Translations under genes and position numbers: made by a program
In this document: piece by piece, positions 22,043 through 41,011 of the stretch
Position numbering within the stretch: the stretch's first letter is position 1
How the letters are laid out: each line of letters starts with the position of its first letter
The notes under the pieces: model-generated
What the model was told of the DNA's origin: nothing
The model's input: the letters and a program-made list of their open reading frames with translations, nothing else
The model's database searches: none
Assembly (NCBI GenBank): GCA_030696695.1
Contig: JAUYRP010000034.1
Span: 62,001 to 126,000 of the forward strand
Length of the DNA stretch: 64,000 bases
From: Methylophilus sp.
Lineage (GTDB): Bacteria; Pseudomonadota; Gammaproteobacteria; Burkholderiales; Methylophilaceae
Reading direction: 5' to 3'

Positions 22043-23467
22043 TTACAATAATTTTTCGATTATCCTAGAAAACCGTTCTTTCACTTTTTCTAGAAATGGC
22101 CTTTTCTTCCATTCTTGCAATTGAATTTTTTTGGCTTTTTCTATGTCTTTCGCAAATTTTGCGTCTAATTGATTCGCCGTTTTTTTACCCAGTACCACAA
22201 CATCTACTTCTTCATTCAATGTGGCGCTGCGGTAATCAAAGTTAGAACTTCCCACCACAGACCAAACACCATCCACTGAAATCGTTTTTGCGTGCAACAC
22301 CTCGGCATTCATTTCATAAATATCAATCCCGCTTTTTAACATATCTTCATAATGAGAGCGCTGTACATAAATAGAAACGGTTGAATCTGAAAGCCCAGGT
22401 AGAATTAACTCAACTTTTGCACCCCTCTTAGAGGCTTCAATCAGCGATTTCTTTTGATCTTTTGTCGGAACAAAATAAGCTGAATTCATAACGATTTTTT
22501 TGGCTGCGTTGTCAATCGCTGCTACCAACGTGGCATAAAAATAGTGCTTGTCATCTTTAGGTGAGCTACCAATTACATGGATAAATTCATTGCCCATTTT
22601 TTCTTGCTTCGGAAAAAAATCTTGCTGATCAATGACTTGATTGGTGTCCCAATGTTCTAAAAATAGCGTTTGTAGCGCAGCCACTGCCGGCCCTTTGATC
22701 TGCAAATCAGTATCGCGCCAATAAGCCTCTTGTGCATTCTTGGGTTGTTTACTTGCACCAGAAGAACCAAATAAGGATTTACTTTGGTAAGTACTACTTA
22801 AATTCACTCCACCCACAATCGCCACTTTACCGTCCACAATCAGCATTTTCCTGTGATCACGGTGATTCACATCATGGATGTTTTCTAGGTCTATCGAGCT
22901 ATACTCAGTAAGCTTTACCCCAGCATTTTTTAAATTATCTAAAAATGTTCTGCTGATGTTTAAGCTACCAAACGCGTCGTATATCACGTTGACTCTTACA
23001 CCCTCATTACGCTTTTTGATGAGCAATTGTTCTAGTGTTTCATTTTCGTACTCTATATTTTCAAAAATAAAATACTCTAAATTGATATGTGATTTTGCTG
23101 AATTGGCCGCTTCAAAAATGGCTTTGAAAGTATGTTCTCCATCAAACAGCAATTCTGTATCATTGCCCGCAATCAAAGGTTGATTAGATATACCTTGCGT
23201 AATTTTTAGCTGTTTCTCAAGCAAAGCGGCATCTTCATCACTATCGGCCAACCGGTTGATGGCTTTATCGACACCTGCAGATGAGAAATTCTTATTAATG
23301 CCTTTGATTTCCAAGTCTTGTGTGTGCGGCTCAGCATCTTCAATGATTGTTTGGGTGTCGGGGATGGTTTGGCACCCACTCAATAGCAATCCGCTCAACA
23401 ACAAAAGAGAGAAAATGTTAACTACGTGCTGGCGAACCATTAAATGCTGACTGAAATTTGAATGCAT
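22043..23467 (-). CDS. Phospholipase D family cardiolipin synthase-like lipoprotein
   Basis: The 474-residue protein has a signal peptide ending LLSGC, so it is probably a lipoprotein facing the periplasm. Two PLD motifs are visible: HRDHRKMLIVDGKVAIVGG in the first half and HAKTISVDGVWSVVGSSN in the second, the paired HxK motifs needed for catalysis. Family members condense phospholipids to cardiolipin. The periplasmic lipoprotein form resembles ClsC/YmdC-like or related PLD proteins. It is convergent with the small lipoprotein gene and alone in its transcription unit. Confidence 0.85.
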   Translation of the reverse strand: MHSNFSQHLMVRQHVVNIFSLLLLSGLLLSGCQTIPDTQTIIEDAEPHTQDLEIKGINKNFSSAGVDKAINRLADSDEDAALLEKQLKITQGISNQPLIAGNDTELLFDGEHTFKAIFEAANSAKSHINLEYFIFENIEYENETLEQLLIKKRNEGVRVNVIYDAFGSLNISRTFLDNLKNAGVKLTEYSSIDLENIHDVNHRDHRKMLIVDGKVAIVGGVNLSSTYQSKSLFGSSGASKQPKNAQEAYWRDTDLQIKGPAVAALQTLFLEHWDTNQVIDQQDFFPKQEKMGNEFIHVIGSSPKDDKHYFYATLVAAIDNAAKKIVMNSAYFVPTKDQKKSLIEASKRGAKVELILPGLSDSTVSIYVQRSHYEDMLKSGIDIYEMNAEVLHAKTISVDGVWSVVGSSNFDYRSATLNEEVDVVVLGKKTANQLDAKFAKDIEKAKKIQLQEWKKRPFLEKVKERFSRIIEKLL

Positions 23468-23674
23468 GGTTTAAACTTGATAGCAGATGCTAATGATGAC
23501 CACATGAATAATTCATTCATATTACTATAGTGGGGTTACACATAGGACACGCCAAGTGCAAATTTGGTTGCCTGTGATATATGACTGACATGACTGTGGT
23601 TATTCCACCACGATTGATGAATGAGACGTTGAATCTGCAAACTTTATTGAACAACAGCCATTGGATGGCCAATA

Positions 23675-24079
23675 TTATTTCGCCTGCGCTTGTGTGAGCG
23701 CTTTTCTAAACCCCAACGGATCTGAAATATTTGGAATGGGTGCTTGATTAAAGCCCGTGCCTGCAATGCTCAGCGAGCCATAATTAAATACTCTACCCAG
23801 TACGCTTTGCTGTACTTCAATTGATTCAACTTTAGCAATATTGATTTCAATCACTCTTCTGCTGATTAAGCCGGTTTTTACAACGACTCTTTTATTGGTA
23901 ACGGCTAGCTCGGTAGTTTTGTATCGAATATAAGCGATAATCAGCAACACCAAGCCGATAACAACGGGCGCTAAAATGACGCCAAAGAAAATCAATGGAA
24001 ACATAGACCATAAACTGATATTGCCTTGATGCAATATCGTCTCGTCATCTAACAATGAGCCTTCGATATAGCTTGCCAT
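23675..24079 (-). CDS. Bacterial PH-domain (bPH2/DUF304-like) membrane protein
   Basis: The 134-residue protein has two close hydrophobic helices (about 25-55) followed by a bPH2-type pleckstrin-like beta domain, recognisable as LAVTNKRVVVKTGLISRRVIEI...VESIEVQQSVLGRVFNYGSL. Such proteins are membrane-associated and probably scaffold or lipid-interacting; no enzymatic role is known. It is followed downstream by the GIY-YIG gene with a 47-base gap or more, in the same direction. Confidence 0.8.
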   Translation of the reverse strand: MASYIEGSLLDDETILHQGNISLWSMFPLIFFGVILAPVVIGLVLLIIAYIRYKTTELAVTNKRVVVKTGLISRRVIEINIAKVESIEVQQSVLGRVFNYGSLSIAGTGFNQAPIPNISDPLGFRKALTQAQAK

Positions 24080-24126
24080 GAAACTTCCTTTTTCAACTGT
24101 TTTTACATTATGTATTAGTTTTAAAG

Positions 24127-24414
24127 CTAACTGTTTGCTAATTTCCGCTTCTCATTTGCTTCAAGTTGCTTGGTTGCATATTCTGCAATGGAGGCCTCGG
24201 AACGATTGGCGTATGCAATGACTTTGAGCAGCTGTTTGGGCGGGTGTGAACGTGTATATTTGGCACCCTTGCCTGCTACATGTGCTTGATACCGTGCCGC
24301 AACATCCACAGTAATACCTGTGTAGATACTCCCGTCCTCGCATTCAATGAGATACAAGTACCAAGGCTTAACATGTTTTTCATCGGTTGTAGCTAAGTTG
24401 TTTTGATGGGTCAT
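24127..24414 (-). CDS. GIY-YIG nuclease superfamily protein (YhbQ-like)
   Basis: A protein of about 95 residues with the single GIY-YIG domain: WYLYLIECEDGSIYTGIT (the GIY...YIG equivalents are YLY and YTG), the conserved Arg in DVAARYQAHVAGKGAKYTR, and a late Glu/Lys region. E. coli YhbQ-type proteins are small putative DNA nucleases. The ATG at 24414 gives the normal length. An in-frame TTG at 24465 would add 17 unusual residues and has no ribosome-binding site. Confidence 0.85.
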   Translation of the reverse strand: MTHQNNLATTDEKHVKPWYLYLIECEDGSIYTGITVDVAARYQAHVAGKGAKYTRSHPPKQLLKVIAYANRSEASIAEYATKQLEANEKRKLANS

Positions 24415-24540
24415 ACAGAGGTTATAGTAACTAATTGATATAGTGCTGAGCTTACTAGATGCCAAGACTCAATAGCGTGAATTACTATATTTTAAGTGCC
24501 AAATGTGTATATTTGGTTAATTGAAGTGGTTAAGCGCCAA

Positions 24541-24993
24541 TCACTTGCGCATATTTTCAGCAATGCTAGACAACTCACCACGGGCTGAAAAATGGACGAT
24601 GACAGATTTCTTACCTCTCAGCTGCGTCAAATCTATCTCCTGCAATTTAAACCGTTCTGCAATATCGCCCACCGGTACGGTCGTGTTATCCACACGTCTT
24701 ACCGCATCTTTAAAGCGAAAGCGTTCGATTTTTGCCCACCCAATCAAAATTGCACTGATGATGACAATAATCGCTGAATACAAACCTAGCTTATCTATCA
24801 CACCTGCATACCCTTGAAGCGCGACAATTTGAATGTGAAATAACTTTGCTCCTACCCACCAAGCGACCAGCGTAATCAATGGTAGCCACAAATAGATATA
24901 AAGCATCCAGAAGAAAAAAGTCACTGAGCTCCAGCCAAATCGGTGGGCATTTGATTGTAGTTCTGGGTTCTCTATGATCAATGATCTACTCAT
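24541..24993 (-). CDS. pgaD: PNAG synthesis accessory protein PgaD
   Basis: The 150-residue protein has two transmembrane helices (about 23-50 and 68-90) and a short cytoplasmic tail, as in PgaD. PgaD partners with the glycosyltransferase PgaC in the inner membrane, and in E. coli the pair binds c-di-GMP to switch on polymerisation. Its start overlaps the end of pgaC by 4 bases (ATGA). Assignment rests on size, topology and position as the last gene of pgaABCD, since PgaD sequence conservation is weak. Confidence 0.85.
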   Translation of the reverse strand: MSRSLIIENPELQSNAHRFGWSSVTFFFWMLYIYLWLPLITLVAWWVGAKLFHIQIVALQGYAGVIDKLGLYSAIIVIISAILIGWAKIERFRFKDAVRRVDNTTVPVGDIAERFKLQEIDLTQLRGKKSVIVHFSARGELSSIAENMRK

Positions 24994-26261
24994 GGCATGG
25001 TCCTATTTTGATGAATGCCACGATCTGGGCTGGTCCAAGTGGCACGTTTGTTGCGATCTTTCAATAATGCTGCTGGTAAGCCAACCACACTGGTGGCTGC
25101 TGAAATCATCCAGAACAGCATGGGGTACCAGATCATCCAGTAATAGTAACGACGGATTTTCTTTTCATAACGGCTATCAATAAACAAGCTCAATGCAAAC
25201 TGTAACAAGCAAGTCATGGCAAGCAACACACCGTTCCACTCCGGAATAACGGTTTTGATATATAGATAGGGCGGCAAGTCGATAAAATTACCAATCGCCC
25301 ATAACAAAAAGATGGCGCACATGACATAAGCCCACAAGATGCTCACCACCAACTCTGTGTAGACTGGCCACATGCGACGTTTTTTAATGTCTGTAAAAAT
25401 GCCTCTGAATTTCAGCAACACTTCTGCACCACCCTGCGCCCAACGCAAGCGTTGTTTCCACAAACCTTTAAGTGTTTCTGGCATCAGTATCCAACATAAG
25501 GCATTGGGTTCGTAGCGCACATCATAATAATGGGTCTGCATTTTCCAGCTGATGTCGATATCTTCGGTCACCATATTGGTGCTCCAATAACCCACCTTGT
25601 GTAAGGCAGATTTTCGAAACGCAGCCACCACGCCTGACACCGTGAATACACGGCCATACACGCGTTGCGCACGCTTAATCAGACCAATCACAGAAGAAAA
25701 TTCGCCCACTTGTAACTTGCCTAGCATGGTGGAACGGTTGCGGATTCTCGGGTTGCCGGTCACTGCAGCCACTCTTGAGCTGGAGACAAAATGCCGCATC
25801 ATCCAGGTAATGCAGTTGGGATCAAGTACTGCATCGCCATCAATACACACGAGATACTCGCTGGTCGACAACATGGCGCCTACCGTCAATGCCATCGCCT
25901 TGCCTTGGTTGCTTGCCAGTTGTACCGCTTTCACATTGGGATGTTGCGATGCAATGTCTTCTATAATCGCGGCCGTGTTGTCGCTGCTGCCGTCATTGAT
26001 AGCAATAATGTCGTAATTTGGATAATTCAGTTTAAGCAACGCACCGATAGTTTCATAAGCGTTGTGTCCCTCATTAAAACAAGGCACCAACACACTCACA
26101 TGCGGGTATTCTGGCAACGCTGGCGGCGATGTATATAAAGCATCGCCCTGCTCTCGACTAAAGTAATAGTAAAGCGCACCTGCCATCCATAAATAAGACA
26201 TAAACAGTGGGTAATAAAAGGCAAACCCTAATAACCACTCAGGCAAATCTTTGTACCACAT
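24990..26261 (-). CDS. pgaC: Poly-beta-1,6-GlcNAc synthase PgaC (GT2)
   Basis: The 423-residue processive inner-membrane glycosyltransferase polymerises UDP-GlcNAc into PNAG. GT2 motifs are complete: VLVPCFNEGHNA, NDGSSDNTAAII, the DxD-type CIDGDAVLD, TEDIDISW and the QxxRW-type KQRLRWAQGG. One hydrophobic segment precedes the catalytic domain and several follow it. It is the third gene of the operon. UDP-GlcNAc supply would come from glmU and glmS, which also lie in this window. Confidence 0.95.
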   Translation of the reverse strand: MWYKDLPEWLLGFAFYYPLFMSYLWMAGALYYYFSREQGDALYTSPPALPEYPHVSVLVPCFNEGHNAYETIGALLKLNYPNYDIIAINDGSSDNTAAIIEDIASQHPNVKAVQLASNQGKAMALTVGAMLSTSEYLVCIDGDAVLDPNCITWMMRHFVSSSRVAAVTGNPRIRNRSTMLGKLQVGEFSSVIGLIKRAQRVYGRVFTVSGVVAAFRKSALHKVGYWSTNMVTEDIDISWKMQTHYYDVRYEPNALCWILMPETLKGLWKQRLRWAQGGAEVLLKFRGIFTDIKKRRMWPVYTELVVSILWAYVMCAIFLLWAIGNFIDLPPYLYIKTVIPEWNGVLLAMTCLLQFALSLFIDSRYEKKIRRYYYWMIWYPMLFWMISAATSVVGLPAALLKDRNKRATWTSPDRGIHQNRTMP

Positions 26262-26297
26262 ATTTAAGTTTCATCTTTCATAGTAGCGTGCCTATGT

Positions 26298-28262
26298 TCA
26301 TTTACCTGAAGGTAAATATGGAAAGCTTCGCGATGAAATATGCGGGCGAATAGCATCCATGTCCGGTTGATTATTCAAAAAGTTATCTGGGTAATAGCCA
26401 AAATGATGCGCACCAGCACGCTCGAGAATTTGCATCTGTTGTTTTATAACGTCTGAATGGACGGGTTGCTTTAATTTCCAATCCACGGCTTGTAGCTCAA
26501 ACACGGTTTTCTGCAACCCTTGTGGGGTCTGCTTGGCTTGCGCAACCAATGAGGTTAGCCAAGCCTTAGAATCTGCCACGTTTTCCATCAACGGCATTGC
26601 CATGACTGCGGTGTAATCATAGGCGGCGATAAAGTCACGGTAGTTTTGACTGAGCCAACGCTCACTTTCCGCATTGAGCATCACGGGCGCATATAAGTTA
26701 CGTGCTGTTTTTAACTCAGGTTGGTAATGTTTAAGCGCGTCTGCTAATTCCAAGGTAAATTGAATAAGCTTTTGGCTTTTAAGTGTTACTAATTTGGCAG
26801 CTTGTTCAGGGTCTTGTTGTATCTCTGTAATGCTAGCACCCGTCAGCTTGAACTCCTGTTGATACGCCGTGCGTGCAAATTGGCTATCGTCTTCATGTTC
26901 GGAGAACACTGCATCATCGTGAAATAAGATGCCAGAAAATTTGGTATAGGCACCTAAATCAACATAAATCTCTTTGATGATCTGTCTTGCTTCTGATGAA
27001 AAGGGCGTTAAGCGCTTGTAAGCAGCTTTGTCTGCTTCTGGTTGCGCAGAGGTGACTTGAAATGATGCTTGCTTGCGTTTATCTTTTAACTCAAACGAGA
27101 GTACTGGCATCCAAGCATAAACTTTTACGTTCGTACGTGTCATGAGCTGCCATGCCACGCGGCTAAACAAGTCAGCGCGCATCTCCACATGACGATTAGG
27201 GAAATAAACCGCTTCCGCTACGCCATCGCCATTACTATCTGAAAATGCTTGTAAGTACACCGTGGTAGGCGCTAATGACTGCACACGATCTAACAGTGCA
27301 TCTAAATTTCTAGTGGTTTGCTCTACACTTTCATCATACACATAGTCTAAATCAATGTGCATCACGCGCTGTCTATCTAGCAAAGGTTCACGTCGGTCTA
27401 GCTCTGCCAAACGTATTTCCGTAGGGTTTCCATCAATTAAAAAGCGCCCTATTTGCGTTAAGTTTTGCGTATTGGGCAGCTCATTCTCCGCCAAACTTAA
27501 TGTCACTGGCATACCAACTTCACCAGCAACCGCTCTTGCAGTGCTATTGTGTGCGCCATAGGGCCACACCATCACGCGTGGCAATTTTCCTGTCATACGC
27601 TGAATGAATGCGTTGTTTTTCATTAAGTCTTGCTTAATGCGAAGACGGTACTGCGCTGGTGATTCGTAGGCTTGGCTAGTCGCGTCATACTGCATGGTGA
27701 CGGCGGCGGCCATCATGTTGCCTTGCGGGTTGGCCAATATACCGTGATGCAAATCGTAACTATGAGAAGCAAACTCCACTAATCCAGAATCAGCCATCTC
27801 TTTTATTTGAGCGGTTGTTAAAAAATGTGCTCTAGATACCAATTCATCACCATATTGCACTGTTTTATCGGGCGCTACCTCCAGCCAACTGCCAACCAAA
27901 GCGGCCACTGCAGGGTATTGATACAACTTAAGCAAGGGATAAACGCGGGTGTAGAAACTTGCATAACCATCATCAAAGGTCAGCAATACAGGTTTGTGCG
28001 GTAAAGGTTTAATACCAGATTTTGCATTCAACAAATCATCAATACTAATCGGATGATAACCATGTGCCTGCAGCCAAGCAAAATGGCGCGCTAAATTTCT
28101 AGTCGACAAGGTGGTAGTGTCTTGGTCCAAGTCGCCATCTACTTGGTCTTTAACATCGTGGTAACTTAACACATCAAAGGTTTGTGCAGCCGCACAAGCC
28201 GTGACAGAAAGCACGCTGATATTCAGCAGCAACACTATAAGAGATAAAGTTAATTTAACCAT
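26298..28262 (-). CDS. pgaB: PNAG deacetylase/hydrolase PgaB
   Basis: The 654-residue periplasmic protein has an N-terminal signal with a possible lipobox (SVTAC). A polysaccharide deacetylase domain carries LLTFDDGYASF (FDDGY at 96-100), FASHSYDLHHG (metal His pair) and VWPYGAHN. The C-terminal GH153-like domain has HIDLDYVYD and ILFHDDAVFSEHED. Both active regions look intact, so it should partly deacetylate PNAG for export and cleave it. It is 1 base from pgaA and 36 bases from pgaC. Confidence 0.95.
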   Translation of the reverse strand: MVKLTLSLIVLLLNISVLSVTACAAAQTFDVLSYHDVKDQVDGDLDQDTTTLSTRNLARHFAWLQAHGYHPISIDDLLNAKSGIKPLPHKPVLLTFDDGYASFYTRVYPLLKLYQYPAVAALVGSWLEVAPDKTVQYGDELVSRAHFLTTAQIKEMADSGLVEFASHSYDLHHGILANPQGNMMAAAVTMQYDATSQAYESPAQYRLRIKQDLMKNNAFIQRMTGKLPRVMVWPYGAHNSTARAVAGEVGMPVTLSLAENELPNTQNLTQIGRFLIDGNPTEIRLAELDRREPLLDRQRVMHIDLDYVYDESVEQTTRNLDALLDRVQSLAPTTVYLQAFSDSNGDGVAEAVYFPNRHVEMRADLFSRVAWQLMTRTNVKVYAWMPVLSFELKDKRKQASFQVTSAQPEADKAAYKRLTPFSSEARQIIKEIYVDLGAYTKFSGILFHDDAVFSEHEDDSQFARTAYQQEFKLTGASITEIQQDPEQAAKLVTLKSQKLIQFTLELADALKHYQPELKTARNLYAPVMLNAESERWLSQNYRDFIAAYDYTAVMAMPLMENVADSKAWLTSLVAQAKQTPQGLQKTVFELQAVDWKLKQPVHSDVIKQQMQILERAGAHHFGYYPDNFLNNQPDMDAIRPHISSRSFPYLPSGK

Positions 28263-28263
28263 G

Positions 28264-30714
28264 TTAGAACAGTAGGTTTAACCTAGCAAAATATTGGGTG
28301 ATGTATTCATTGACACCATCAAATGGATGACGAAAACGCGTCACACCGTAATCTATTTCAAAACGATCATCCCATCGGAATTGTTGCTCATAGCTCACCA
28401 ACCAAGTGGTGTCCGACCCAAAATTTTTCTGCCAATAATGACCCGTGCCCACTTGTAAGCGATGACCGAATGAACGTTCATAGCGTCGCCACAGCAACCA
28501 TTCGTTGTCAAGAATCACCGACGATTCTAGATCCCGCTCTGGATTATAATAAATCGTATTTCGTTCTGTATTTTGTGAGGCGTCTAAACGCAGATGCGTG
28601 GTGAGCTTGTAGTGGGGCCGTGTGATCAATCGCAGATCTGTGGCTAAATTGAGTATCTTGCGTTGGTTGCCATCACTCATGTCCATATAACCAACGTTTA
28701 CGGATGCGCGCGCTAAATCGCTCCAGCGATGTACAGCATATGCATTCATCATGTCACCACTGATGCCTGCGTTTAATCCACGTAATGGCATTTGTGTAGC
28801 GTTAACCGCTAACGCACCGCCAAACAGCCAATAATCATCTAAGCGATAATCTGCCGTTACCGCAGCGGTGGTGCCTATGTTCGAAATTGTGCCTTGGCTC
28901 ACTTGACCTGTGATGCGCCAGTCTCGGTCTGTGTATTCAAGACCAATGCCGGGATAGAAAATATTGCCGGTGCCTTCGGGAAAGGTAGCATGCTCATAGC
29001 GTGTGCTTACAAATGCACGATAGTTGTAATTGATTGGGCGCGAATACAATACTGCATTTACAGCTTGTGAGCGGCTACCAAATGCTGAACCAGAATAGGT
29101 GCTATCGATGCCATCTACTACTAGCTGACGCTCATTGCGTAGCATCCAACGACGGTCCAATAATTGCACCGCTGAATTCTCTGGGTACATCTCCACCAGT
29201 GGCTCAATTTCGCTTTCTGCCAATTGCCAATCGCGCAGATCAAGCCGTGAGTTGGCTAAATTCACTTTGGGTAATAACAACTCAGGGTAATCCTGGGTTA
29301 CCTCGATAAAGCGTTGTTCTGCGCGGTTTGGCCAGCCGCGCCAACGCCATATTTCACCCAACGCCATTCTCACGTCGTTATTCGCTGGGCCCACATCATT
29401 CAATGCTTGAAATCGCTGTTCAGCAGTAGCTAAATCATCGCCATACGCACGTAAGTAATACGCTTTGCTATCGGCTTCTAACTTATTGTCCTCTGAGCGC
29501 ACCACCCGGTTATTCGGTCTTTGTCTGTAGGCCGTCAGTGAGTTCGACACCTCATCAATCAGTGTAGTGGCGGCATCAAACTGCTCTAACTCTACCAAAG
29601 TATAGAATTTAGAAAACTTGGTTTCCAATACGTCAGGTGCAAGCAGCAGCGAAGCGTCATACGCTTTAATCGCTTCCTCTGGTTTTCTTAAATACAAATA
29701 GGCATCGCCCACAGCATTGAGCACATACGCTGGGAGCTCAACTTTGGCTTGTTGCAGCTGTTGATAATGCGTAATCACTTCTTGCATACGATAGCGATTA
29801 CGTAATGCCACCATACGATCAAACACTAAATTTCTCTGCAAATACGTATTCAGCTCCAACGTGTTCCAATCACACTGGCAAGCCTCATCTAATTTGGCTA
29901 GCGCTTGATCTGTATCGGCAAATCTATCTGCTGGAAGCTTGCTTGGGTAGCGACCCCAAGCGATATATTGCGCTGCATTATCGTTGTGGATTTTTGCTAT
30001 CTCATTATTGTTCGCAGCATTTGGATATTGCTTGGCCAAGGCTAACGCTTGTGCGGTCGCGCCAGCTTCTCGCGCAGATCTAATCAAGGCTGTAGCCGCG
30101 GCCTCATCTTGTGGGTTTAACGCTAATATGCGCGTATTGGCATCCACCTCAAGCACGGGTTGTTTAGTCTGTTGACCAAAATATGCTAGTGCCCGATAAA
30201 CCTCAACATAATTCGGATATTGCTGGCGCAATATGGTGATAGAAGATTCTGCCTCGTCAAAACGCCCTGCATCAATGAGTGCCAGCGTTTTTCCTACTTG
30301 ATAATCGACTTGATTAGGCTCGCGTGCTATTAACTGCGCGTAATAGTCTATGGACGTTGAATATTGCTTGGTGTTGCGTGCTGCTTTTGCTAAAGCGCTT
30401 AAGCCGTAGCTTGGCATGCTTGCTGTATCTAAATTGCTAGCATGAGCTAGAGCTTCTTGATCTTTCTTGGCCCAAGTGAGCACCTCAATGTAATCGGCTT
30501 GTATGCCCATATCATTCGGTGCTTCTTTCGTCATGGCGACGAATGCAGGGATAGCAATCTCAAATTTGCCTGCGCGCGCTTCTTGAAGCGCTACTTGACG
30601 GCGATCGCCTAGGCTCAATGCGGTGGCAGCTGTTTCCGCGGCGATTGCCGTCTGCTCTAGCGTTAGCATCAACACTAGCAACGTCATTCTGATCAAGGCG
30701 TTCGTATACCGCAA
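28264..30714 (-). CDS. pgaA: PNAG outer-membrane export porin PgaA
   Basis: A protein of about 816 residues with a signal peptide (LLVLMLTLEQTAIAAETA), a periplasmic superhelix of TPR repeats (about 30-510) and a C-terminal 16-strand type beta-barrel ending with an aromatic residue (YFARLNLLF). It carries deacetylated PNAG out of the cell. The start is debatable: TTG at 30714 lies six bases after GGGGGA; TTG 30729 and ATG 30687 are alternatives. A non-ATG start could throttle expression. It is first in pgaABCD. Confidence 0.92.
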   Translation of the reverse strand: MRYTNALIRMTLLVLMLTLEQTAIAAETAATALSLGDRRQVALQEARAGKFEIAIPAFVAMTKEAPNDMGIQADYIEVLTWAKKDQEALAHASNLDTASMPSYGLSALAKAARNTKQYSTSIDYYAQLIAREPNQVDYQVGKTLALIDAGRFDEAESSITILRQQYPNYVEVYRALAYFGQQTKQPVLEVDANTRILALNPQDEAAATALIRSAREAGATAQALALAKQYPNAANNNEIAKIHNDNAAQYIAWGRYPSKLPADRFADTDQALAKLDEACQCDWNTLELNTYLQRNLVFDRMVALRNRYRMQEVITHYQQLQQAKVELPAYVLNAVGDAYLYLRKPEEAIKAYDASLLLAPDVLETKFSKFYTLVELEQFDAATTLIDEVSNSLTAYRQRPNNRVVRSEDNKLEADSKAYYLRAYGDDLATAEQRFQALNDVGPANNDVRMALGEIWRWRGWPNRAEQRFIEVTQDYPELLLPKVNLANSRLDLRDWQLAESEIEPLVEMYPENSAVQLLDRRWMLRNERQLVVDGIDSTYSGSAFGSRSQAVNAVLYSRPINYNYRAFVSTRYEHATFPEGTGNIFYPGIGLEYTDRDWRITGQVSQGTISNIGTTAAVTADYRLDDYWLFGGALAVNATQMPLRGLNAGISGDMMNAYAVHRWSDLARASVNVGYMDMSDGNQRKILNLATDLRLITRPHYKLTTHLRLDASQNTERNTIYYNPERDLESSVILDNEWLLWRRYERSFGHRLQVGTGHYWQKNFGSDTTWLVSYEQQFRWDDRFEIDYGVTRFRHPFDGVNEYITQYFARLNLLF

Positions 30715-30729
30715 ATCTTTCCCCCACAA

Positions 30730-31161: not shown

Positions 31162-31542
31162 TCAATTTTCTGAGTAACGATTTAATAAGGACTTAGTGTT
31201 GCTTTTGATATGCTGATGCAAGCGCTTTATAAGCGTTTTTTCTGTACCTTGTGATTTTATCGCATGCATTTCTTCAGATATTGCGTCTAAGTTACTTAAA
31301 ACGGATTCTGCTACCGCAAGAAAAATATTATAGGTGTACTTTTCTTTAATATTTAACTGTTTTGCCAAAATACCTATCTGTTTGCTGCCGATTTTGTGCG
31401 GTAACGTCACGCCGCCAATGTTAAATGCAAAGTTTTTCGACAGTCCGCTATAAAAACTGGTTGAAATCAGATCATAAAATGGCGTCAGCCTAGCAGCTTG
31501 GCAAGCGGGGAGCAGGTCATGACCAATTCTGGATATTCTCTT
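31162..31542 (-). pseudogene. HipA-like C-terminal fragment
   Basis: The frame open from 31542 to the stop at 31162 encodes about 126 residues that look like the end of a HipA-type serine/threonine kinase: ARLTPFYDLISTSFYSGLSK, FAFNIGG, then a helical tail. The N-terminal kinase parts (ATP-binding loop, catalytic Asp) are missing. The sequence before the HipA-like part is taken up by another remnant in a different frame. An internal ATG at 31410 could give an 82-residue product, but it would be non-functional as a kinase. I read this as deletion debris. HipA identity is from pattern memory and is moderate. Confidence 0.5.
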
Positions 31543-31704
31543 CTAAGTTAAAAGTAGATGCATCGGGCGCTAGCGTATCTGCGTACCCATTATGCGAGCA
31601 AATATAGCTGTGGCTTTTTTCCATGCCTGTGCCAAAACAACAGGATCAGACAAATAATCTAATGTTGGCTTCAGCTGTTTATATTTAGGGTTAACTAAAC
31701 TCAC
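31517..31704 (-). pseudogene. Frameshifted N-terminal remnant of reverse-transcriptase-like gene
   Basis: A GTG codon at 31704, three bases after the hsdS stop, opens a frame reading MSLVNPKYKQLKPTLDYLSD and on to LAQAWKK. At a run of six A (31615-31620, reverse strand) the frame breaks. One added base would continue SHSYICSHNGYADTLAPDAS and TFNLEENIQNW before a stop at 31517. This resembles the N-terminus of a bacterial RNA-directed DNA polymerase family that I associate with restriction-modification loci (memory, not searched). The polymerase domain itself is absent. The sequence then passes abruptly into the HipA-like fragment. Confidence 0.45.
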
Positions 31705-34943: not shown

Positions 34944-37298
34944 TTATGCGTACAGTTGTTGTTCAAGTTCTTTTAAGGCTTGCAAATAGGCTGGCTTGCC
35001 ACCAAAGGCTGAAATCAGCTCTGGTGCGCTACCCATGCTTTTGAACGGGTCTAGAGTGAGTATTTTAATGTCTTCGATATTCTCGACACCGGTATCGGCG
35101 TATTTTTCTAGCAAGGCATTGAGCACTTGGCGCGCTTGTTCGCCATATTTAGCAAAGTAGTTGCGCTTTTTAACTTGCTCGGCGCGTTCTTTGCGGGTGA
35201 GTGGTGGTTGGTCAAACGCCACATGGCAGATGAGATCAAAGGCATCAAAATCTTTGCCGACTTCTTCGGCTAAAGCATCCAGCAACACCCCATGCTGTTC
35301 AAGCTCATCAATCAAAGCGGCTTTGCGTTCTGCACTGGTCCAAGTTTTTAAAAAGTCATCCAGCGAGGCGTAATCCTTACGCACGGTGTGGCGCGTGTAA
35401 TCTTTCAGCGACTCGGTAATCAGCTTGCCTTCCGGGCCGTAATATTGAACGCGTTCAGATACGACATGAACGGTGACATTGCCTACGACGTATTTAACCC
35501 GGCCTAGCCCAGGTTCTGGTTCGGGACCGAATGGATCATCTTCGCCGCCCTCGCCTGCAGCGCCGCCTGTTTGTGTCGATGTGTCTTCGTCTTCTGGCGG
35601 TACTACTGGCTGATCTGGTTTTGGCTCATAAACTACAATTGGTGGGCCATTAAACTTTTCGTCCGCAAACAGTTCGGTGGCTTTTTTAAAGTCCATGATG
35701 GTAAACCAGTATTTGCCATAGTCTTCATTGATGCGTGTGCCACGGCCAATAATCTGTTTAAACTCGGTCATGGATTTAATGTTTTGGTCGAGCACGACCA
35801 ATTTACAGGTTTGTGCATCTACGCCTGTGGTCATGAGCTTGGATGTACAAGCTATCACTGGGTAACGTTCTTCTGGGTTGATGAAGTTATCTAACTCGGC
35901 TTTTCCTTCGTTTTCATCGCCAGTAATGCGCATGATGTATTTGCGGTTTTCTTTTACGCGCTCTGGATTCAAATTTACCAAGGCCTGACGCATGCGCTCT
36001 GCATGGTCAATGTCATCACAAAACACGATGGTTTTGGCATAAGAGTCGGTGAGTGTGAGGTATTCGGTAATTTTTTGGGCCACTAACTCAGTGCGCTTTT
36101 CTAACACCAAAGTTCTATCCATATCGGTTTGGTTGTAGATGCGGTCTTCAATCAGCTGACCTTTTTTATCCACCTGCCCTGCGTTGGGTCGCCAACCTTG
36201 TAAGTCTTTATCTATATCAATGCGCACCACTTTGTATGGCGCTAAAAAGCCATCTTCAATGCCTTGTTTCAGCGTGTAGCTGTACACAGGCTCACCAAAG
36301 TAAGTGATACTAGAAATCTCTTTGGTTTCTTTGGGTGTGGCGGTTAAACCGATGTGGGTGGCTTTATTAAAGTATTCCAACACTTCACGCCAGGCTGAGT
36401 CTTCTGATGCGCTGCCTCGGTGGCATTCATCGACCACGATTAAATCAAAAAAGTCTGGGCTAAATTGCTTGTAGATGTTTTTGTCTTCTTCATTACCTGT
36501 CACTGCTTGATAGAGCGAAAGATAAATCTCGTAGCTTTTATCAATTTGGCGCTTGCTGATTTTAGTCATCGCCGCGCCAAAAGGTTTGAAGTCATTGTTC
36601 TTGGTTTGGTCGACCAGAATATTGCGGTCAGCTAGAAACAGAATGCGTTTTTTAGTACCTGATTTCCATAAACGCCAAATAATTTGAAAGGCGGTATAGG
36701 TTTTACCTGTGCCAGTCGCCATGACAAGCAACACACGTTGTTGCCCGCGAGCGACTGCTTCAATGGTGTTGTTGATGGCGCTGGCTTGGTAATATCGTGG
36801 CGCGCGGCCTGAGCCGTCATCATAATAGGGCATTTCTACTGTGCTTTTAGCTTGCTCAGTCTGAATGCCTTTCCAAACGCAATAGCGCTGCCAGAGTGCT
36901 TCAGGGCTTGGAAATTCGTTGAGCGCTATTTCTTGCTCAATGCGACTGGAATTGCCAGTGCGGTCATGCATTAAAAAGGCATCACCGTTAGAGCTAAATA
37001 CAAAGGGGATTTCTAAGGTCTCGGCATAGTTAAGCGCTTGTTGCATGCCTGCCCCGACGCTATGGCCATTGTCTTTGGCTTCGATAATGGCGATAGGGAT
37101 ATTAGATTTGTAATAGAGAATATAGTCAGCGCGTTTTTGCTCACCACGGCTATGCAGCTTGCCACGCACAATGATGCGACCTTTGGTAAAGCTTACTTCT
37201 TCACGTACTTGCATATGTATATCCCAACCCGCCTCTTGAATAGCGGGTGAAATAAACTTAGTGCATATATCGCGTTCAGATAACTTTTTCTTATCCAA
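34944..37298 (-). CDS. hsdR: Type I restriction endonuclease HsdR
   Basis: The 784-residue translocating restriction subunit has an N-terminal nuclease domain with a PD-(D/E)xK-like [20 protein letters not shown]. The SF2 helicase motor follows: motif [17 protein letters not shown]-like [12 protein letters not shown] motif LTATPKET and the late [15 protein letters not shown]-terminal helical domain binds the methylase. It is first in the operon, separated from gyrB by a terminator. All key motifs are intact, so the system looks active. Confidence 0.96.
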
Positions 37299-37378
37299 TT
37301 TAGAAGCCCGTCTTTATTTTTAGTGTTACTTTAAATCAATGATTAGTATTTAAAACCCTTATTACTATTTTATGCATT

Positions 37379-37402
37379 AAAAAAGCCCTTTCGGGCTTTT
37401 TT
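37379..37402 (-). terminator. Intrinsic terminator after gyrB
   Basis: AAAAAAGCCC-TTTC-GGGCTTTTTT forms a symmetrical hairpin with a U-run on both strands. It lies 62 bases after the gyrB stop and upstream of hsdR, isolating the restriction operon from replication genes. Confidence 0.9.
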
Positions 37403-37463
37403 AATATTCACTCAAAATATAGAAAATTGCGAATTATTCATAGTTTTGTGCAAACCTACAAAA

Positions 37464-41011
<3,548 letters not shown>

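Follow-up and report, generated by a model that had tools for sequence, protein, structure and literature searches.

A drt1 remnant behind a type I RM operon

Our analysis indicates that the window, by which we mean the whole 64 kb stretch of DNA analysed, probably holds the deletion scar of drt1, the last gene of an hsdR-hsdM-hsdS-drt1 operon. On this reading the place behind the last hsd gene in relatives is an exchangeable slot in which DRT1 recurs, and type I RM would form a first line of defence with co-expressed DRT1 as the second. The restriction operon and the scar lie on the minus strand (Table 1). Since hsdR, hsdM and hsdS are open, stand close together on one strand and match type I models, a type I RM system is predicted from sequence. 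The drt1 remnant begins with a GTG codon at 31704, 3 bases past the hsdS stop, and its frame changes in a poly-A run between pieces 1 and 2; both features had been described in an earlier note on this DNA and both were borne out. Each piece alone matched the PADLOC model Drt1a and the matched stretches are contiguous on the model, which is why we regard the two pieces as one broken gene. A DRT1 N-terminal profile, built from 82 sequences with the closest relative excluded, was used to scan the six frames of the 64 kb plus five fetched loci. The two pieces were its two best matches, the next match in the window having an E value of 0.7. The earlier assignment to a reverse transcriptase (RT) could be narrowed to DRT1, an RT-nitrilase, on the strength of the Drt1a matches of both pieces, an intact relative and a solved structure.

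Table 1. Features of the restriction operon and the adjoining scar in the window.
Feature	Position	Strand	Evidence
hsdR, type I restriction subunit, 784 aa	34944..37298	-	open full length; PADLOC REase_I PDLC03049, 1246.8 bits; Pfam ResIII, HSDR_N, EcoEI_R_C
hsdM, type I methyltransferase, 492 aa	33450..34928	-	open full length; PADLOC MTase_I, 858 bits; Pfam N6_Mtase, HsdM_N
hsdS, type I specificity subunit, 579 aa	31708..33447	-	open full length; PADLOC Specificity_I PDLC03179, 526.5 bits; Pfam Methylase_S
drt1 remnant piece 1, residues 1-30, GTG start	31615..31704	-	Drt1a PDLC03745 positions 5-25, E 5.8e-6; six-frame profile E 2.8e-13
drt1 remnant piece 2, residues 31-62, other frame, stop at deletion junction	31520..31615	-	Drt1a PDLC03745 positions 26-57, E 1.5e-7; six-frame profile E 1e-10
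Junction: stop codon (31519-31517) and about 16 bases ascribed to neither gene	31501..31519	-	comparison with locus L002; alignment of most HipA relatives starts at residue 12-13
hipA remnant, C-terminal ~110 residues and stop	31162..31500	-	34-57% identical stretches in 13 other family genomes; HipA_C 15.7 bits

The remnant preserves DRT1 N-terminal sequence over 62 codons of about 1235. Past codon 62 drt1 sequence is absent, and from the first base after that codon the window diverges from locus L002. Because the sequence ends there, the remnant has neither the RT active site YVDD nor the nitrilase E-K-C residues. It is, moreover, altered at three near-invariant residues, namely R36 (83/84 sequences), W40 (82/84) and L47 (81/85). 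Judged by its sequence, it is the remnant of a DRT1 gene and not a working DRT1, and the scar itself is an ordinary pseudogene. The proposal of a deletion scar of an RT gene that was once part of a type I operon is thereby supported, all but the first 62 codons of drt1 being gone while the hsd genes are open.

Frameshifts in homopolymer runs are a common type of sequencing error, and the poly-A run could therefore be taken to mean that drt1 is really intact and was broken by sequencing or assembly. However, whether or not the frameshift is real, drt1 is absent past codon 62 and HipA-like sequence stands in its place. The three changes at near-invariant residues also speak against an error, as does the genome to which the window belongs, where no further Drt1a match at E 1e-5 was found besides the remnant and a group II intron RT. 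We give this explanation practically no weight. The other RT gene of the genome (L138; G000:C30:1623-3014) is of the group II intron type and has a maturase domain. Downstream of the scar, at 22043-30729 of the window, lie genes of which some may be pgaABCD-like (surface polysaccharide).

An intact DRT1 in the same genus

Matches to Drt1a at E 1e-5 or better were obtained in 9 of 187 family genomes. Besides the window remnant, the sole near-full-length match among the 187 came from genome G059, that of Methylophilus aquaticus VKM B-3159 (100% identity), which belongs to the same genus as the window; the other matches were weak and fell in the RT region. The M. aquaticus DRT1 has 1235 residues. 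Its match to Drt1a PDLC03745 scores 1285.7 bits and spans positions 4-1176, its match to PDB chain 9yfd_A covers residues 1-1208 of 1229, and it carries both YVDD and the nitrilase E-K-C of a full-length RT-nitrilase. All 87 DRT1 proteins compared, that of M. aquaticus among them, have both RT aspartates and the nitrilase E-K-C. Serines of the M. aquaticus protein occur in the region of the priming position (S402 in PMC13275509), compared here by region. A search of 369 genomes of the class with this protein gave no match, an outcome to which we attach no weight.

The window remnant is identical to this protein at 56 of 62 residues, and the DNA of the two is 83% identical across the hsdS end and the drt1 start. 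In M. aquaticus, drt1 starts 3 bases after a 109-residue frame that consists of the hsdR N-terminus fused in frame to the hsdS C-terminus. Here, then, is an RT-domain protein that shares the N-terminus of the remnant and directly follows an hsd frame, as the earlier note had suggested looking for. No close hsdM was found in the M. aquaticus genome. Since the window has kept RM and lost drt1, while M. aquaticus has kept drt1 and lost RM at that site, one genus shows opposite losses.

The HipA-like sequence at the junction

A HipA-like C-terminus, in a different frame and running to the stop at 31162, had been noted behind the RT fragment. The frame and the stop were correct, but the HipA-like part begins near 31500, as most HipA relatives align from residue 12-13 of the remnant frame (P0001), and about 20 bases at the junction were ascribed to neither gene. 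Residues 13-119 of P0001 are 52% identical to the complete HipA of locus L012, which supports the HipA identity, and the matches in the 13 other genomes of the family lie mostly in frames of about 420 residues. Alignment to Pfam, proposed as a check, failed for the remnant alone, which scored below the HipA_C cut-off of 30.5; the complete HipA of L012 reached 148.3 bits and also matched Couple_hipA.

There was no sign that a hipA module formed part of an RM-RT unit, and we rejected this idea. M. aquaticus has no match to the HipA remnant, and at the two of the 13 HipA loci that were read (L012 and L014) no hsd or drt1 frame occurs within flanks of about 1.5 kb. A helix-turn-helix (HTH) frame behind drt1 in M. 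aquaticus, considered as a possible hipB, had one other match in 187 genomes (L140).

drt1 behind type I operons in other bacteria

The survey covered 88 DRT1 loci: 80 from genome contigs, the best of 234 confirmed there, together with 3 from viral contigs and those in 5 of 6 plasmid records. Intact hsdR-hsdM-hsdS genes of the window's family stand directly before a full drt1, less than 60 bases away and on the same strand, in six of these loci: an Oleispira MAG (L041), Marinobacterium rhizophilum (L050), Pleionea mediterranea (L056), Shewanella benthica (L059), Nitrincola tapanii (L082) and Marinobacter gelidimuriae (L087). The window itself keeps only the RM half of this arrangement. In L034 an hsdS gene precedes drt1 at a contig edge, and type I R genes of other families precede it in L048, L096, L065 and L078. 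Stop-to-start spacing is 8 to 52 bases, on the same strand, in seven hsdS-drt1 loci and 3 bases in M. aquaticus; drt1 overlaps the preceding frame by 4 bases in L036 and L044, and behind the R genes of other families the gap is about 11 to 146 bases. The earlier note had raised an intact RT tightly coupled to hsdS in relatives as a compound defence system worth describing. As regards gene order and spacing this is supported by these sequences, but the RT looks like a removable tail gene and not like a fixed part of the RM operon.

The side on which type I genes occur was compared using loci with at least 2.5 kb upstream (73, with the truncated L029 left out) or downstream (76). A type I gene or scar stood directly upstream of drt1 in 14/73 loci and directly downstream in 2/76 (L045 and L112; Fisher p 0.0011, kinship ignored). 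In this count L065 and L078 have the same RM, the L089 scar was recognised by eye and on the upstream side only, and some upstream queries had been taken from upstream neighbours. With scars excluded, the comparison was 10/73 upstream vs 2/76 downstream (p 0.016, the loci not being independent). An added check of 20 larger downstream and 10 further upstream neighbours of drt1 yielded no type I gene on either side. When neighbours were pooled, with 25 families listed per side, HsdS was the nearest upstream family in 6/62 loci and the known partner Drt1b lay downstream in 10/70.

With the queries used, no type I gene was detected directly upstream of drt1 in 59/73 loci. None lay directly beside drt1 in the five plasmid records; the one type I-annotated gene of L028 is about 7 kb off and on the other strand. 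In 10/73 loci (L032, L033, L035, L038, L040, L054, L063, L064, L071 and L080) drt1 stands behind the gene for the ~1480-aa DrmMI-like protein of L063 or for a protein related to it, and it is also found behind type IIG and ankyrin genes. Since DRT1 follows other defence genes as well, its partner is not specific. Between the DrmMI-type partner, a second repeated partner of DRT1, and drt1 itself stands a gene of about 665 aa in 8 of the 10 loci, the copy in L032 being weakly LmuB-like.

Upstream content was also mapped onto a FastTree phylogeny of 87 DRT1 proteins, which came with long-branch warnings. Five changes account for hsdRMS before drt1 (7 rows), 4 for the scars (4 rows) and 8 for the two labels combined. 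The hsdRMS label shows some clustering (mean of 6.8 after shuffling, with a value this low in 3/500 shuffles), and the scars show none. The number of changes needed points to repeated gains and/or losses. The same can be seen in another way: compared with L050, L056 and L059, L041 has HsdR and HsdM proteins of 74-78% identity but a DRT1 of only 33-34% identity, and the DRT1 proteins of L050, L056 and L059 are 62-67% identical to each other. DRT1 divergence correlated with that of HsdM (r 0.67, p 0.016 for 6 loci; 0.38, p 0.038 for 8 loci) and less with that of HsdR (r 0.50, p 0.044; 0.26, p 0.096), and showed no correlation with that of HsdS (r -0.02 and 0.04, respectively). Co-inheritance of drt1 with RM is thus only partial, drt1 tracking HsdM in part, HsdR less and HsdS not at all.

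A candidate cargo slot behind the last hsd gene

In two of the Vibrio loci, L065 and L078, the hsdM and hsdR genes are 93-94% identical at the DNA level, hsdS is mostly different, and similarity ceases at the hsdR stop; the drt1 genes that follow belong to different clades (29-39% identity). A search with the HsdR of L078 in 196 genomes of the genus gave 10 matches at E 1e-150 or better, L078 included, from which the partial match of G608 (48%) was left out. Together with L065, ten hsdMSR copies were readable downstream, with HsdR proteins 92-100% identical; the copy in G588 is split over contigs. Four of the ten carry drt1 of two distant clades, one clade accompanied by a drt1b-like frame (L078 and L159, the latter 59% identical to L078) and the other found in L065 and L155 (92% identical to each other). 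In one copy (L156) the cargo is no more than a frameshifted stub of drt1, about 50 codons long, a second stub like that of the window. Five hold other cargo. L157 encodes a protein of 2486 residues that matches TmtA weakly; L158 and L160, which are near-identical, and L161 have a module of two genes, one for a 495-residue protein and one for a helicase of 940 residues; and L162 has a 344-residue PDC-S11 candidate. Without the two seeds, intact drt1 is present in 2/8 copies and the stub in 1/8.

Between the Vibrio copies, identity is 79-100% over the final 300 bases of hsdR. Over the first 300 bases after the hsdR stop it is 22-47% where the content differs and 57-100% where it is of the same kind. 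Because similarity stops at the last hsd stop codon, with differing content behind it, we infer a swappable cargo slot at the 3' end of the operon in which DRT1 recurs. The far end of the slot is marked in five copies by an inverted repeat that they share, followed by a tniQ-like frame (shortened in L161; the Pfam TniQ model was tested in L158 and L078). TnsD/TniQ genes beside Vibrio type I operons, at L065:289-1887, L078:14253-15464 and L158:8487-9698, suggest that the RM-cargo islands ride on Tn7-like elements. The PDC-S11 candidate occurs both behind the Marinobacter drt1 (L087:13996-15084) and directly behind a Vibrio hsdR (L162:1430-2464), as if one set of cargo circulates.

These loci also bear on the rival explanation that drt1 and type I RM merely land in the same defence islands, so that position and order are meaningless. 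The other cargo taken up by the Vibrio slot, the TniQ or TnsD genes near 6/10 Vibrio copies and the occurrence of DRT1 behind DrmMI-type, type IIG and ankyrin genes are all in keeping with it. Against plain clustering speak the upstream bias, the spacing of 8 to 52 bases, on the same strand, between hsdS and drt1 where loci of the window's family are intact, and DRT1 of two distant clades in one slot behind HsdR proteins 92-100% identical; we judge it decidedly improbable.

The corresponding site behind hsdS varies in the window's family as well. A related hsdM occurs in 13 genomes, in three of which the contig stops within the site or short of it. Of the ten readable sites, that of the window holds the drt1 and hipA remnants, and four have no same-strand gene of 80 codons directly behind. 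Two of the others hold DUF3800 proteins, and one each holds a UG19 RT, an AlbA/Schlafen gene, and a 584-residue gene that overlaps hsdS and is followed by a second gene. The UG19 reverse transcriptase (L137:7932-9992, genome G052; 572 bits) starts 6 bases behind the hsdS of a distant type I operon of the same family. UG19 was considered as a second regular RT behind hsdS and rejected, this being the one case; the sole match at E 1e-60 in 321 class genomes (L142) follows a 1283-residue frame that may encode an oxidase.

Two further observations concern the RM operon itself. In another genus of the family (L129, genome G110) the order gyrB-hsdR-hsdM-hsdS is the same as in the window (37298-39869), with hsdM 89% identical and the contig ending inside hsdS. 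This recurrence points to gyrB as a possible insertion site common to both. In a close relative of the window's operon (L127:9160-10002, genome G069), a 280-aa gene with no Pfam or PADLOC match lies between hsdR and hsdM.

Reciprocal losses and the relation of DRT1 to restriction

Four loci carry an hsd scar before an open drt1. In L030 the scar is one in-frame fusion of the hsdR N-terminus with the hsdS C-terminus. The scar of L044 joins three parts in a single frame, namely the N-terminus of hsdR, a short piece from its interior and the C-terminus of hsdS, and this frame ends in an overlap with the drt1 start. A shifted hsdR N-terminus remains in L036, where the end of the frame likewise overlaps the drt1 start, and L089 retains an hsdS C-terminal remnant whose frame does not stop at the drt1 start. 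As the frame still runs to the drt1 start in 3/4 scars, translational coupling from hsd to drt1 is suggested by these sequences, four scars being too few for proof.

Survival of an open drt1 where the adjoining RM is gone makes it less likely that the two form one sensing unit, in which the Hsd complex would hold DRT1 inactive and release it when a phage blocks or evades restriction. Such guarding has a precedent in PrrC-PrrI (PMC3506569) and would suit both the repeated occurrence of DRT1 behind different type I families and the nearly identical Vibrio RM that carries DRT1 of two distant clades. It is at odds with the four scarred loci, among whose genomes that of M. aquaticus has no close hsdM, as well as with the uncorrelated divergence of DRT1 and HsdS and the 59/73 loci in which no type I gene was detected directly upstream. 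Moreover, DRT1 by itself protects E. coli, according to PMC13275509. We consider guarding improbable.

We favor instead the reading of the window as the scar of a removable tail gene. In this scenario the RM genes would have stayed open while drt1 was deleted past codon 62, so that the cut end would now abut the C-terminal end of hipA. Where intact, drt1 follows the last hsd gene at a distance of between a few and a few dozen bases and would be expressed from the RM promoter, probably by translational coupling, to judge from spacing and scars. RM would act first, against unmodified phage DNA, and DRT1 would act second by aborting infections that have passed restriction and are at replication; both the division of labor and the order are our inference. 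Each half should be able to work alone, and the loss of each half on its own would follow if it works without the other. A stronger form, which we think unlikely, would make DRT1 a dedicated second-line effector of type I RM that sits in a maintained slot, is co-translated, senses or exploits RM failure and aborts the infection, distant clades being reinstalled since they would work with any type I system.

The DRT1 study (PMC13275509) describes an RT with a nitrilase effector that makes template-free, protein-primed DNA adducts, requires both its RT and its nitrilase site, causes abortive infection and presumably acts midway through infection. Escape mutants link DRT1 to the T4 Dda helicase, and the activation pathway is called elusive. 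Given that elusive trigger, the natural RM-DRT1 pairs, the two DRT1 clades behind a near-constant RM and the natural deletions of a single half offer material for testing cooperation between restriction and DRT1. To judge from sequence, the loci of the relatives are more interesting than the window scar, as the spot behind the operon appears repeatedly to gain, swap and lose the same kind of antiphage gene.

Relation to known systems

The window remnant corresponds to the N-terminus of DRT1 (UG1 RT-nitrilase; PDB 9yfd; PMC13275509), of which the M. aquaticus copy is full length; the window copy differs in that 62 of about 1235 codons remain, none of them for a catalytic residue. In PMC13275509 the word restriction appears only at two places in the reference list, and sections 5, 9 and 10 name no RM partner. 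The consulted portions of PMC8565338, PMC4244168 and PMC12839542 contain nothing on DRT1 with RM. Suicide and defence genes inside type I RM clusters are already known. Among the matches listed, an RT as a recurrent, swappable tail gene was not found, nor was DRT1 in this role with slot exchange and reciprocal loss, and the arrangement may be new.

The closest parallels are as follows. AbiA and AbiK (PMC8934634) are likewise UG/Abi-type RTs reported with RM genes, but they belong to other RT classes, and the available part of that paper describes no slot exchange or reciprocal loss. PrrC-PrrI (PMC3506569) resembles the present case in that the gene for a suicide-type effector, an anticodon nuclease, is clustered with hsd genes; the protein is a different one, control by the Hsd complex is hypothetical for DRT1, and drt1 stands behind the last hsd gene. 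DarTG2 with RptR, in the type I RM island of EPEC (PMC12255303), is similarly a second defence module inside a type I operon, and the hsdS-hsdR site is called a potential recombination hotspot there; its slot lies between hsdS and hsdR, in contrast to the drt1 slot behind the last gene, where the cargo is an RT. TgvAB, in the type I RM cluster of VPI-2 (PMC11411939), are also embedded defence genes and are described as complementary with respect to modified and non-modified phages, but they form a GmrSD-like pair inside the cluster, whereas drt1 is a single RT gene at the operon end.
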